Shown: positions 39,394 through 43,602, counted from the stretch's first letter. The stretch is 45,537 bases of DNA from Alphaproteobacteria bacterium (GCA_028706255.1 JAQWBS010000010.1:1-45537), one strand, 5' to 3'. Notes: generated by a model from the sequence alone, not told the origin. Translations and numbers: made by a program.

Positions 39394-39600
39394 GTGGTTC
39401 AAGTTACTGTTATCGGTAATGATGTAGGGCAATCTTTGAAAGTTTTGAAAAAGAAAATGCAAAGAGAAGGCGTTTTCCGTGAGATGAAATTAAGACGTCA
39501 TCATGAAAAATCTTCAGAGAAGAAAGCTCGTCGCCAAGCGGAAGCTGTTAGACGTGCTCGTAAGCAACTACGTAAACGCTTAGAAACTGAAGGATATTAG
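39394..39600 (+). CDS. rpsU: Ribosomal protein S21
   Basis: A 68-residue, strongly basic 30S subunit protein. The pattern [20 protein letters not shown] and the Arg/Lys-rich C-terminus are typical. Its start is GTG 39394, preceded by a very strong SD (AAGGTGGTGA), as expected for a ribosomal gene. A terminator follows 17 bp later. Confidence 0.96.
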
Positions 39601-39617: not shown

Positions 39618-39653
39618 AAAGAAAGGCTTAGATGAAAATCTGAGCCTTTCTTT
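39618..39653 (+). terminator. Terminator after rpsU
   Basis: A 13-bp stem with one G-T pair (39618-39630 with 39641-39653), a 10-base loop and a T-rich 3' arm. The AAAGAAAGGCT core is the same as in the terminator at 3983-4026. Confidence 0.85.
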
Positions 39654-39703
39654 GTATTTTATGAATTTATTTTATTGCATCTTTAATTTTTACATTATAC
39701 CAT

Positions 39704-39720
39704 ATACCCGTAGAGGGTAT
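39704..39720 (+). promoter_or_regulatory. CsoR/RcnR-like operator palindrome
   Basis: ATACCC-GTAGA-GGGTAT is a perfect 6-bp inverted repeat with a 5-base centre. It matches the TACCC-N(4-6)-GGGTA pattern of CsoR/RcnR/FrmR-family metal- or aldehyde-sensing repressors. It lies 32 bp before the first gene of the ABC operon, overlapping the expected promoter. No such repressor gene is in the window. Confidence 0.55.
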
Positions 39721-39751
39721 TCTTTGTTTGGTTAAATTTTGGAGATTTGAT

Positions 39752-40141
39752 ATGAAAAAAATTAAATATATGACTTTAGCATTCGTCGCATTTTTGTTTT
39801 CTGCCACAACTTCAGCGCAACAAGCTATGGCTGTTGAAGCACAAGCAGAAACTTATAGCATTAAATATGAATGGCCACAAAAACCAAAAGTTGGTGATCA
39901 TGTGCTAAAAGTTAAAGTGTTTCAAGAAAAAGAAATGGTTACAGATGTTGAGGTGGTCGTGAGCTATGACATGCCTTCCATGAGAGGACATCATGACACC
40001 ACTGCTAAAATGATGCAAAATAAGAAAGGCGAATTTTTGCTACCAATCAACTTTGCAATGAGAGGTGGTTGGGAAATTGTTTTAACGGCTGAAAAAGACG
40101 GCAAAATAGTGGCTAAAGAAATCATTTTGTTGGATATTTAG
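39752..40141 (+). CDS. Exported YtkA-like domain protein
   Basis: A 129-residue exported protein. A signal peptide (about 1-22, ending TSAQ or QAMA) is followed by one beta-sandwich domain resembling the YtkA/FixH family. Its most conserved-looking stretch is DMPSMRGHHDTTAKMM, a Met/His cluster that could bind copper or another soft metal, and MRGGWEIVL follows. The start is ATG 39752 with GGAG at 39741-39744; an in-frame TTG at 39728 is upstream of the SD. It is the first gene of a five-gene operon, 2 bp from the next. Confidence 0.75.
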   Translation: MKKIKYMTLAFVAFLFSATTSAQQAMAVEAQAETYSIKYEWPQKPKVGDHVLKVKVFQEKEMVTDVEVVVSYDMPSMRGHHDTTAKMMQNKKGEFLLPINFAMRGGWEIVLTAEKDGKIVAKEIILLDI

Positions 40142-40143
40142 AA

Positions 40144-41121
40144 ATGAAGAAACTCCTTTATACATTTTTTGGTATAGTGTTTTTATTGCCAACCTCAGTT
40201 AAGGCTTCAAACAGTTTGTTGTATCTTGAGGCTCAGGGAATCGTTGGCTATTCATCAATGGATAAGGGAGTTGTTTATCGTTCTGCTCATCAACATGATA
40301 CAATGCAAAAAAACGGTGTTGGTTTTGACTATCTTCAAAAATTTTCGGGTGATTATGGAGACATTGGCACTGGTGCTTTGCAGATGAGAGTTGTTTGGGA
40401 TGATGATAAACAAAAATTTCAGGCACAAACTTATAATGCTTACCTCAAAGGAAAAACAGAACTTGCAGATGTTTGGGCGGGACATAACCGAATTGCTTAT
40501 GGGTTAAGTTCTTATTGGGATACGCATGCTGATTTACTTCAACCTCTTTCGATGTATGGGTTTGGAGAAGATAGAGATTGGGGCGTGGGGCTAAACAGAG
40601 ATTTTGAGAAAAGCGATTTTGCTTTTGCGTTGACCACAGGTTCTGGCATGGGCTTGCGGACGAAGGGAAATTGGTTGGTCACCTCACGAACTTCTTACGG
40701 GGTTTTGTCACAAGATAATTATAATATCGGCTTGTCAGCAATGGTTGGTGAAAAACTTGATACAATGGGTTATAAACTGATGAGTTCTGACTCTAAAAAA
40801 ATTGCACTTGGGGCGTTGGATTTTGCCTATAATCATGGTCGATTTGAACATAAGGTTGAGGCTGATTATGGGCAAAAAGCTTCTTCAGAGGCATATGCAG
40901 GGTTTTATCGATTAGGTATTAACTTTTTAGATGAGAATCGCCTGAAGCTAGAAGGGCAATATGCTTATACGCATGAAGAAGGAAAAAACAACCAAATTCT
41001 TGGTGCAGGCACAACCTATAAAATTAATGCCGATTTAACGACAAGATTAATGTATCAAAAAGAAAGAGAAATGAATAATGAAACAGTGGTTTTTCAACTT
41101 TACTACTATTTTCGTTATTAG
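40144..41121 (+). CDS. Outer-membrane beta-barrel protein
   Basis: A 325-residue protein with a signal peptide (about 1-21, ending VKAS). The remainder is made of alternating amphipathic strands. It ends in YYYFRY, an aromatic-terminated strand expected for BAM insertion. No family is recognised beyond barrel/porin-like. The YtkA-like gene is 2 bp upstream and an exported FMN-binding-like gene 8 bp downstream. The barrel could pass the substrate handled by the operon across the outer membrane. Confidence 0.7.
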   Translation: MKKLLYTFFGIVFLLPTSVKASNSLLYLEAQGIVGYSSMDKGVVYRSAHQHDTMQKNGVGFDYLQKFSGDYGDIGTGALQMRVVWDDDKQKFQAQTYNAYLKGKTELADVWAGHNRIAYGLSSYWDTHADLLQPLSMYGFGEDRDWGVGLNRDFEKSDFAFALTTGSGMGLRTKGNWLVTSRTSYGVLSQDNYNIGLSAMVGEKLDTMGYKLMSSDSKKIALGALDFAYNHGRFEHKVEADYGQKASSEAYAGFYRLGINFLDENRLKLEGQYAYTHEEGKNNQILGAGTTYKINADLTTRLMYQKEREMNNETVVFQLYYYFRY

Positions 41122-41129
41122 GGAGAGGA

Positions 41130-41735
41130 ATGATGAAAAAAATATTACTGACATTGTTTTTTTTGATTGGCGTTCAATCGAATGTTTTTGCTGCGGTGGG
41201 CTGTGATTTGAATGACCCTGACCGAGATGTTAAAAGATTATTTCCAACATCAACGGGGTATAAAACAGATTATAAATCTTTAGATAGAATGGGCGGAGAG
41301 GAAACACTGAAAGAAGTTGAGGCTAAACTTGGCGACAAATTTAGTGGTATTTATGAAACGATTGATGTGCCATATACTGTTTATACTATTTTCAAAGGTA
41401 AGGAAATTATAGGTTATATTCATGGGATTAACCAAAAGGGAAAATATGGCGGTTTACAAGTTTTTCTGGCATTTGACCCAAAGGGAAATGTTTTAGATTT
41501 TTATTATCAGAAACTCACAAGTCGTGAGGCTGTTCAGATGCGTTCGAAAGAATTTGCAACTCAGTTTAAGGATTTATCTTTTGTAGATTTTAAAACATAT
41601 AACCCAACAACTCAAGCAAATATTCCAGCCCAAATTTCTAAAGTTGAAAATGTCGATTTTTATTCAACTTTGCGTGCGGTTAAGAAAAATTTGATTTTGA
41701 TGAATATTTTTGTTTATGACAATCAAGGAGAATAG
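41130..41735 (+). CDS. Exported FMN-binding-like domain protein
   Basis: A 201-residue exported protein with a signal peptide (about 1-22, ending VFAA). The region GYIHGINQKGKYGGLQVFLAFDPKG resembles the FMN-binding domain of the RnfG/NqrC type (periplasmic, flavin attached at Thr). The motif for covalent flavin attachment is not obvious, so flavin binding is unproven. A GGAGAGG-type SD precedes the two tandem ATGs (41130 and 41133). The gene is 2 bp before the FtsX-type permease. Confidence 0.6.
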   Translation: MMKKILLTLFFLIGVQSNVFAAVGCDLNDPDRDVKRLFPTSTGYKTDYKSLDRMGGEETLKEVEAKLGDKFSGIYETIDVPYTVYTIFKGKEIIGYIHGINQKGKYGGLQVFLAFDPKGNVLDFYYQKLTSREAVQMRSKEFATQFKDLSFVDFKTYNPTTQANIPAQISKVENVDFYSTLRAVKKNLILMNIFVYDNQGE

Positions 41736-41737
41736 AG

Positions 41738-42919
41738 ATGAATGTGTTTCAACTCTCATACAAAAACCTATTTCGCCGCAAAGTGAGAACTTTGTTCACG
41801 ATTATAGGCATAACCCTTTCAACTTGGGTTTTAGTGACCCTTCTTGGCTTTAATAAGGGTTATGAGAACTCTCTTAATGATAATATTGAAGGCATGGGCT
41901 TTCAGATTGTTTTAACCGCCAAGGGCTGTCCTTATGAAGCAGCAACACTAATGCTCAAAGGTGGAACAGGACTTCGCTATATGCCAGAAGAAATGGTTGC
42001 AGATGTTGCTTCTCGTAAAGAAGTGGCACAAGCAACGGCTCAGTTGATGCACGTTGAATTTGACCCGAACAAGGGAGAAAATGGGGGTTCAGTCGTTTAT
42101 TTGGGAATTGACCCGACAACTTTTGCAGAAATGAAGCCATATCTTGAATTTACGCAAGGGAAATGGTTTGAACAACAAACAGGAAATGTTGTTGTGCTCG
42201 GCTATGAAGCAGCAGAATTGGAACAAAGAGAAGTCGGTGACTTAATGTTACTCTCAGGAAGTGAAGCTGAATATGAAGTTGTTGGTGTTTTGAAAAGAAC
42301 AGGAACGCAAGATGATGGGATGATTTTTTTGCCGTTACAAACTGCTCAAAAAGCTTTCAATAAGCAAAATGAACTTACCATGCTTGGTATTAGACTTAAT
42401 AAAGATGTCAACCAAACAGCCTTTGAAGAAGAACTTTATAAATTGCCAGATGTTCAAGTCGTTTCAATGGCACAAGTGAAAAATACGATTATGGGCTTGG
42501 TTTCTAGTGCAAAAGTGATTGTGCTTTCCATTGCCTTTATTGCCTTTATTATTGCAATGTTCGGGGTTTTGAACACGGTTTTGATGAGTGTGTTTGAAAG
42601 ATATCAAGAAATTGGCATTTTGAAAAGCATGGGGGCAATGCCAAAAGATATCTTCAAGATGATTTTGATTGAAACAACCATTTTATGTTCTGCAGGTGGA
42701 CTCTTGGGAATTGGTTTCTCTTATCTGTTCTCAGGGATTTCAGAAGTCGCAATTAGATATTTCTTGCCTTTTGCCCCAAATGGAAAACTCATCTTGATTG
42801 ATAGTCAAATTGCTTTGTTTGCCTTTGTTTCAATTACGTTGATTGGTATTGTTGGTGGAATGTATCCTGCGTGGAGAGCTTCCAAGGTTAGACCACTAGA
42901 TAGCATTAGGAGTGAATAA
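41738..42919 (+). CDS. FtsX/MacB-type ABC transporter permease
   Basis: A 393-residue type VII ABC permease. An N-terminal transmembrane helix (about 18-40) precedes a large periplasmic domain (about 45-255). Three transmembrane helices follow near 258-288, 310-335 and 350-378. The core after the first C-terminal helix (GVLNTVLMSVFERYQEIGILKSMGA) is the FtsX signature. Family members couple ATP hydrolysis to periplasmic mechanical work or lipoprotein release rather than crossing the membrane. It is followed 2 bp later by its ATPase. Confidence 0.9.
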   Translation: MNVFQLSYKNLFRRKVRTLFTIIGITLSTWVLVTLLGFNKGYENSLNDNIEGMGFQIVLTAKGCPYEAATLMLKGGTGLRYMPEEMVADVASRKEVAQATAQLMHVEFDPNKGENGGSVVYLGIDPTTFAEMKPYLEFTQGKWFEQQTGNVVVLGYEAAELEQREVGDLMLLSGSEAEYEVVGVLKRTGTQDDGMIFLPLQTAQKAFNKQNELTMLGIRLNKDVNQTAFEEELYKLPDVQVVSMAQVKNTIMGLVSSAKVIVLSIAFIAFIIAMFGVLNTVLMSVFERYQEIGILKSMGAMPKDIFKMILIETTILCSAGGLLGIGFSYLFSGISEVAIRYFLPFAPNGKLILIDSQIALFAFVSITLIGIVGGMYPAWRASKVRPLDSIRSE

Positions 42920-42921
42920 AA

Positions 42922-43602
42922 ATGAAAAGCATTATTTCTGTAAAAAACTTGACCAAGATTTATGAAAGAGGTTCAGAAAAAATCCATGCAGTTGACGGGG
43001 TTAATCTTGAAATTAATCAGGGCGATATTGTTTCTGTGATTGGTGAATCTGGAAGCGGGAAAACAACGCTGGTCAATTTGATTGGGTGTCTAGACAATCC
43101 AACCAGTGGAGAGCTTTATCTTGATGGGCAACAGATTTTTGCTCAAGGTGTTGAACTTAGTGAAAGCAAGTTGACGAGAATCAGAAGTGAATTTTTTGGA
43201 TATGTTTTTCAAAAGTTCTTTCTCATTCCGACCTTGACGGTTAAGGAAAATATTTTGCTTCCAAGTATTTTCCAGTCAAAGGTCAAAACTTCTGAAAAAG
43301 AGCTTGATGAGATTATGACGTTGCTTGGCATTTTGAAGCGAAAGAATCACTTACCAAGTGAGCTTTCAGGAGGTGAAATGCAACGTGTGGCAATCGCGAG
43401 AGCGTTGGTCGGCAAACCTAAGATTTTAATTGCTGATGAACCGACAGGAAACTTGGATAGCAAAAGAAGTCAGGAAATTAAAGACTTGCTGATTAAGCTA
43501 AACAAGGAATTTGGGATTACTATTATTATGGTGACTCATAGCCCCGAACTTGCAAAAATCGGCAATCGAATGATTGAAATTAAAGACGGTAAAATAAGTT
43601 AG
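42922..43602 (+). CDS. ABC transporter ATP-binding protein (LolD/MacB type)
   Basis: A 226-residue ATPase partner of the FtsX-type permease. Walker A is GESGSGKTT with K47, the signature is LSGGEMQR and Walker B plus catalytic Glu is ILIADEPTGNLD. The H-loop is VTHSPEL. Length and motif context match the LolD/MacB/FtsE group. It closes the five-gene operon begun by the YtkA-like gene, with gaps of 2-8 bp throughout. Confidence 0.93.
   Translation: MKSIISVKNLTKIYERGSEKIHAVDGVNLEINQGDIVSVIGESGSGKTTLVNLIGCLDNPTSGELYLDGQQIFAQGVELSESKLTRIRSEFFGYVFQKFFLIPTLTVKENILLPSIFQSKVKTSEKELDEIMTLLGILKRKNHLPSELSGGEMQRVAIARALVGKPKILIADEPTGNLDSKRSQEIKDLLIKLNKEFGITIIMVTHSPELAKIGNRMIEIKDGKIS

Follow-up and report, generated by a model that had tools for sequence, protein, structure and literature searches.

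The five-gene operon at 39752-43602 (+ strand) of the window, the whole 45,537-nucleotide stretch of alphaproteobacterial DNA analysed here, reads with a little better than even probability as a horizontally acquired, Cu(I)-inducible copper-defence system of the cell envelope, built around a single-permease type VII ABC module. A function of the operon in copper handling is likely.

Organization of the operon and its gene products

The operon contains five ORFs separated by gaps of 2, 8, 2 and 2 bp, in line with the 2-8 bp spacing given in a preliminary description of this DNA. Read from the sequence, genes 1, 2 and 3 start with signal-peptide-like N-termini. The small ribosomal-protein-S21-like gene upstream of the operon (39394-39600) is followed by a strong hairpin terminator at 39618-39653, so the operon needs a promoter of its own; a consensus sigma-70 promoter was looked for at the operator box and none was found. 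The G+C content of the operon (37.4%) is near that of the window (36.4%), and base composition thus does not mark the operon as foreign.

Gene 1 (39752-40141, + strand, 129 aa) encodes a secreted YtkA-like protein, matching PF13115 with 48.1 bits against a cut-off of 25.9. The segment YDMPSMRGHH is invariant in gene 1 of the three close operons, which agrees with the Met/His cluster described earlier for this YtkA-like product. The protein offers Met and His but no Cys, a Cu/Ag-like ligand set, and its profile has a weak match (E 8e-4) in the structure 9ll2, solved as a 'Copper resistance protein'. In B. subtilis, YtkA domains function in copper handling (PMC13344008); the gene 1 product is likely a periplasmic copper binder. 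Gene 2 (40144-41121, + strand, 325 aa) has no accepted Pfam family. Its secreted product is predicted, at low model confidence, to be an outer-membrane β-barrel with porin-like matches, and the quality of the model supports no fold assignment beyond 'barrel'.

Gene 3 (41130-41735, + strand, 201 aa) encodes a predicted periplasmic protein, for which no Pfam match was obtained. The best matches of its AlphaFold model (pLDDT 63, three sequences) are the FMN-binding RnfG/NqrC chains, and the model, with a pLDDT of only 63, aligns with 7zc6_G at Z 7.5 over 131 residues at 3.7 Å. The closest ordinary relatives of gene 3 in the phylum sample, from genomes G382 and G444, are true FMN_bind proteins, located in operons that comprise barrel, FMN_bind, ApbE-like and cytochrome-b-like genes. 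Both carry the SGAT-type flavin-attachment motif as ISGATLS. This motif is absent from gene 3, and the gene-3-like protein of a Massilia plasmid has DGADLAS, with Asp replacing Thr of the motif. Conversely, Cys25 is common to all four ABC-linked versions of gene 3 and absent from the G382 and G444 proteins. The loss of the motif makes covalent flavin on gene 3 unlikely, and the protein may still bind FMN loosely; an ApbE gene is present elsewhere in the genome. The FMN-binding-like assignment of the preliminary description may hold for the modelled RnfG/NqrC-like fold but not for flavin attachment, and its suggestion of redox assembly is weakened by the same loss.

Gene 4 (41738-42919, + strand, 393 aa) encodes a permease with MacB_PCD and FtsX domains (Pfam), a full-length relative of MacB, whereas gene 5 (42922-43602, + strand, 226 aa) encodes an ABC ATPase (Pfam ABC_tran) that is nearest to LolD by NCBIfam comparison. 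A MacB_PCD/FtsX permease together with a LolD/MacB-type ATPase is the combination that defines a type VII (MacB-like) ABC system, and the pair had been recognized as FtsX/MacB-type before. Particularly, the periplasmic domain of the permease bears a GCPxEAA loop containing Cys64, which is found only in the clade comprising the window, the family genome G505, an Elusimicrobiota genome and Massilia (support 96/95); the Vibrio permease has its Cys one residue later. Assignment to LolCDE was rejected, as gene 4 scores 77.1 bits against 362.45 (TIGR02212) and gene 5 scores 226.1 against 307.75 (TIGR02211). MacAB-TolC was rejected as well, since permease and ATPase are separate genes, no MacA-like adaptor is found among the five products, and the scores are far below the MacB cut-off.

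A putative CsoR operator and the visible regulon

The putative CsoR-type operator CATATACCCGTAGAGGGTATTCT (39701-39723, no strand assigned) is located between the terminator and gene 1. It contains the dyad ATACCC-GTAGA-GGGTAT, of the extended form ATACCC-N5-GGGTAT, 32 bp 5' of the gene 1 start codon, with the core TACCC-N5-GGGTA at 39705-39719. The palindrome reported earlier is therefore present before the operon, but its spacer is five nucleotides and not one. We scored the site with a matrix built solely from the csoR loci of relatives, leaving out the window's genome and G505. The operon site is the top of the window with 22.7 bits, the runner-up reaching 6.7 bits. In 20 Mb of first-order random sequence with matched dinucleotide composition, no site scores as high, and 0.06 occurrences of the extended perfect box are expected per genome from base composition. 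Only boxes within one mismatch of the pattern entered the matrix, which makes its core partly circular, and the independent part of the evidence is the count of perfect boxes: 13 of 29 csoR loci of relatives, these being the best-scoring loci and not a random draw, against none of the 29 for the reversed control. The usual order at these loci is box, metallothionein-like ORF, csoR.

The genome itself (1.62 Mb, 16 contigs) has one CsoR gene; CsoR is present in 74 of 152 genomes of the family. In a pattern search of this genome, perfect TACCCN5GGGTA occurs at two places only, namely the operon and position 163676 on contig 11, the latter with a one-mismatch second box 26 bp away. Both contig 11 boxes, which score 30.8 and 22.8 bits with the same matrix, precede a Cys-rich metallothionein-like ORF, a small membrane protein gene and csoR. 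The check proposed earlier, for a CsoR gene with similar boxes elsewhere in the genome, thus yields a single csoR with a perfect box at its own promoter. Sites with at most one mismatch number 10 genome-wide, compared with 11 for a backwards control, and only the perfect sites and their context therefore carry weight. The weak site C15:7083 is intragenic and was set aside. In the CsoR proteins of this genome and of G505, the Cu(I) ligand positions (C-H-C) retain Cys and His-xxx-Cys, and the best solved relative of both is 4m1p, annotated as a copper-sensitive operon repressor.

The operon is very probably under CsoR-type, copper-responsive control, as suggested by the csoR gene in the genome, the box at csoR promoters of relatives, and a csoR gene heading the operon in one relative, which together bear out the CsoR-box control proposed in the preliminary description. 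The genome also encodes a heavy-metal P-type ATPase and, near csoR, an RND-like system. The genome-wide pattern search found no perfect box at either promoter, so that the metallothionein-like operon and the five-gene operon constitute the visible CsoR regulon.

Several features of the csoR region were observed in addition. The metallothionein-like ORF, of the MAKCNNPNCKCGENCSCG... type, precedes csoR family-wide, often behind tandem CsoR boxes (L012:6702-7700, G000:C11; loci L039-L068), and reaches no Pfam cut-off. Between it and csoR lies a Cys/His-rich small membrane protein (L012:7013-7432, G000:C11), which has no Pfam match and resembles a mercury/metal transport protein. About 3 kb from csoR, an RND metal efflux operon contains CzcC-, CusB-fragment- and CzcA-like genes (L012:9704-14466, G000:C11), the CusB-like protein comprising only 136 residues.

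Carriers of the operon and its acquisition

In a first survey, gene 3 was absent from 70 other genomes, a same-genus genome included, and a profile search located it in two of the 152 family genomes, the present one and G505. In G505 the five genes are all present and in unchanged order, with identities of 44-69%. A 92-residue CsoR gene lies immediately 5' of gene 1 and is thus the first gene of the G505 operon, and the promoter region contains a degenerate dyad of the same length, which at 11.5 bits is the best site of that contig. Two G505 contigs, probably strain variants, contain the locus with near-identical flanks. Genes resembling those for phage terminase and portal proteins are located 2-5 kb from the G505 operon (L023:1989-5025, G505:C66).

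A contig of an Elusimicrobiota metagenome-assembled genome contains genes 1-4 in the same order at 50-78% identity and ends inside gene 4, with neither a CsoR box nor a csoR gene beside the operon. A type IV pilin-like gene on this contig belongs to a kind presumably common in Elusimicrobia, and we therefore lean against a binning error. A contig search with a single permease sequence as query returned one close relative. A phylum-wide permease search of 398 genomes, covering at most four candidates per genome, gave no other carrier at 1e-35, and a tblastn search of plasmids with gene 1 found nothing.

More distant versions are located on plasmids. On the Massilia mine-tailing plasmid the order is ArsR, barrel, gene-3-like (23% identity, E 1e-11), an ORF that stands where YtkA would be and is unrelated to gene 1, permease (34%, E 2e-65), ATPase and a protein with a DsbD N-terminal domain, with recombinase and transposase genes beside it. 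In the Tn3-linked metal island of a Vibrio campbellii plasmid (L016:3661-10747), a Tn3 transposase is followed by ArsR, a small ORF, an FtsX permease with a KGWCAYE motif (27%), ATPase and TlpA, with an SMR pair and a P-type ATPase nearby. These contexts indicate a permease-ATPase core that moves with mobile DNA and is accompanied by metal regulators from two families. Conservation of the palindrome in relatives, which had been put forward earlier as a check, accordingly has two sides: the box is kept at csoR promoters across the family but not before the operon in other carriers, where G505 has its degenerate dyad and own csoR, Elusimicrobiota has none, and Massilia has ArsR instead. As Elusimicrobiota lacks the box, and Massilia and Vibrio have ArsR, the metal may not be copper in every carrier.

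Collinearity between the window and the same-genus genome G001 runs through S21 to window base 39668, where similarity stops; the next genes of G001 are SPFH- and NfeD-like, as named from sequence, and the operon sits right after the break. From this distribution, the operon is a horizontally acquired accessory shared by distant bacteria. Scattering of its genes in relatives had been named as a finding that would speak against the earlier proposal, and gene order is kept in the closest carriers, G505 and Elusimicrobiota.

Proposed mechanism, alternatives and related systems

In the copper-defence reading, CsoR would repress the operon until cytosolic Cu(I) fills its C-H-C site and releases it, derepressing the operon jointly with the metallothionein-like operon that carries csoR. 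The YtkA-like protein would bind periplasmic copper through its MPSMRGHH cluster. The gene 4-gene 5 pair would form a homodimeric type VII ABC machine across which no substrate passes the membrane; instead, its ATP-driven strokes would load or release periplasmic cargo at the periplasmic domain of the permease. Cys64 of the permease and Cys25 of gene 3 are likely copper or thiol contact points, and the gene 2 barrel, at a guess from its model, might serve as the outer-membrane exit. The net effect would be clearance of copper from the periplasm without an RND pump. Several observations stand against copper defence: the operon has no membrane-fusion protein or TolC-like channel, the CsoR box is missing in Elusimicrobiota and replaced by ArsR control in Massilia and Vibrio, YtkA is missing in Massilia, and a heavy-metal P-type ATPase and an RND system are encoded in the genome already. 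More tentatively, with a probability well short of even, the operon may represent a new class of ATP-driven envelope copper pump, in which a type VII ABC machine with a Cys loop, a YtkA carrier and a flavin-less FMN-fold adaptor drive copper from the periplasm to the outer-membrane barrel, the whole spreading as a cassette with an exchangeable regulator (CsoR or ArsR).

The earlier proposal of metal-responsive export or delivery, with copper as a possible metal, gains from the copper-type CsoR control, while the choice between export and delivery is not decided by sequence. Delivery is nevertheless rather unlikely. It would mean that periplasmic or outer-membrane copper sites are assembled or repaired as by NosDFY/NosL or CtaK/Sco, the ABC pair giving mechanical or maturation work, and it draws on CtaK, a YtkA protein that serves CuA assembly in B. 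subtilis (PMC13344008), and on NosFY, an ABC pair required for CuZ assembly. However, an operon controlled by CsoR should be expressed when copper is in excess, the other operon with this operator encodes a metallothionein-like protein, and no cuproenzyme gene is found in the operon or directly beside it. Lower still is the probability that the operon protects from other thiophilic metals (Ag, Cd, Hg, Pb, Zn) and uses copper sensing as a local switch only: the two nearest family carriers have a Cu-type linked sensor and gene 1 has the Cu/Ag-like set, although ArsR regulators and a metal P-type ATPase lie beside the distant plasmid versions and the Massilia strain comes from mine tailings.

Two further explanations disregard copper defence altogether. 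The dyad could be a terminator or a palindrome arisen by chance, and the operon could encode an exporter of LolCDE-like or MacAB-like type that has nothing to do with metals. We regard this as the least probable reading of all, since a strong terminator for the upstream gene already exists at 39618-39653, the dyad agrees with the csoR operator seen across the family, the G505 operon includes csoR, and the scores of genes 4 and 5 are far from reaching the LolCDE and MacB cut-offs; the dyad does score as terminator-like, and gene 5 is nearest to LolD. It is also improbable that the operon is a Fet/P19-like iron-uptake auxiliary, whose FtsX permease, LolD-type ATPase and FMN-binding protein aid metal import by redox work. 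Fet clusters do unite FtsX permeases, a LolD-type ATPase and FMN-binding or thioredoxin proteins, the latter acting with the transporter on iron (PMC8238504, PMC10783030). Membership in this group was rejected because P19 (PF10634) occurs in none of the 152 family genomes, the present one included, and because the operon has one FtsX-type permease, not two; the lost flavin-attachment motif and the CsoR operator argue against it as well.

The five-gene operon has its nearest described counterparts in the Fet/P19 group and in MacB-like modules. With Fet/P19 systems (C. jejuni fetMP-fetABCDEF, FMN-binding variants) it shares probable metal regulation and an FtsX-type permease and LolD-type ATPase, which adjoin a periplasmic metal-binding protein (putative here) and an FMN-binding or thioredoxin protein (here a candidate FMN-binding fold). 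It differs in its single permease, its barrel gene, probable CsoR instead of Fur control, a gene 3 devoid of the flavin-attachment motif, and the absence of P19 and, within the operon, of FTR1 or DUF2318 genes. Beside a Fet-like cluster of Fusobacterium vincentii (L083:9419-12229), we observed an FMN-binding lipoprotein with an SGAT motif, a small membrane protein, a third FtsX permease and an ATPase, possibly a sister arrangement; this permease has a similar KG...LLKGE loop and no Cys64. The type VII systems MacAB-TolC, LolCDE and FtsEX share the MacB_PCD + FtsX permease architecture and the LolD/MacB-type ATPase, whereas here the permease and ATPase are separate, the operon has no MacA-like adaptor, and the permease has an extra Cys loop.

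CsoR-controlled copper operons such as copZA of B. subtilis share the operator type, a Cu-type CsoR and a copper-binding accessory protein (putative here), but their transporter is a P-type ATPase and not an ABC machine reaching to an outer-membrane barrel. The likeness to CusCFBA lies in the proposed role only, bringing periplasmic copper outwards with a small Met-based copper protein; an ABC motor replaces the RND pump, the barrel is porin-like, and the operon has no CusB or CusC relative. Finally, flavinylated FMN_bind-ApbE operons for extracytosolic electron transfer, as in G382 and G444, place a barrel gene beside an FMN-binding-fold gene, an arrangement that the predicted products of genes 2 and 3 resemble, but the present operon has no ApbE or cytochrome-b-like gene and no flavin-attachment motif.

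In Gram-negative bacteria, the copper exporters characterized so far are chiefly P-type ATPases and RND pumps. ABC transporters appear as copper exporters in a copper review only as part of a list, and its text mentions neither MacB nor YtkA. No paper on an operon of such composition was found in the literature searched, in agreement with the earlier remark that no characterized system of this exact make-up was known. If the proposal is true, a copper-controlled type VII ABC operon adds a different motor for periplasmic metal. It would also serve as a tractable example of the many metal-linked clusters, Fet/P19 among them, in which FtsX/LolD genes accompany those for FMN-binding or thioredoxin proteins, and it would make it possible to test cleanly if these machines work through mechanotransmission to proteins that carry metal.
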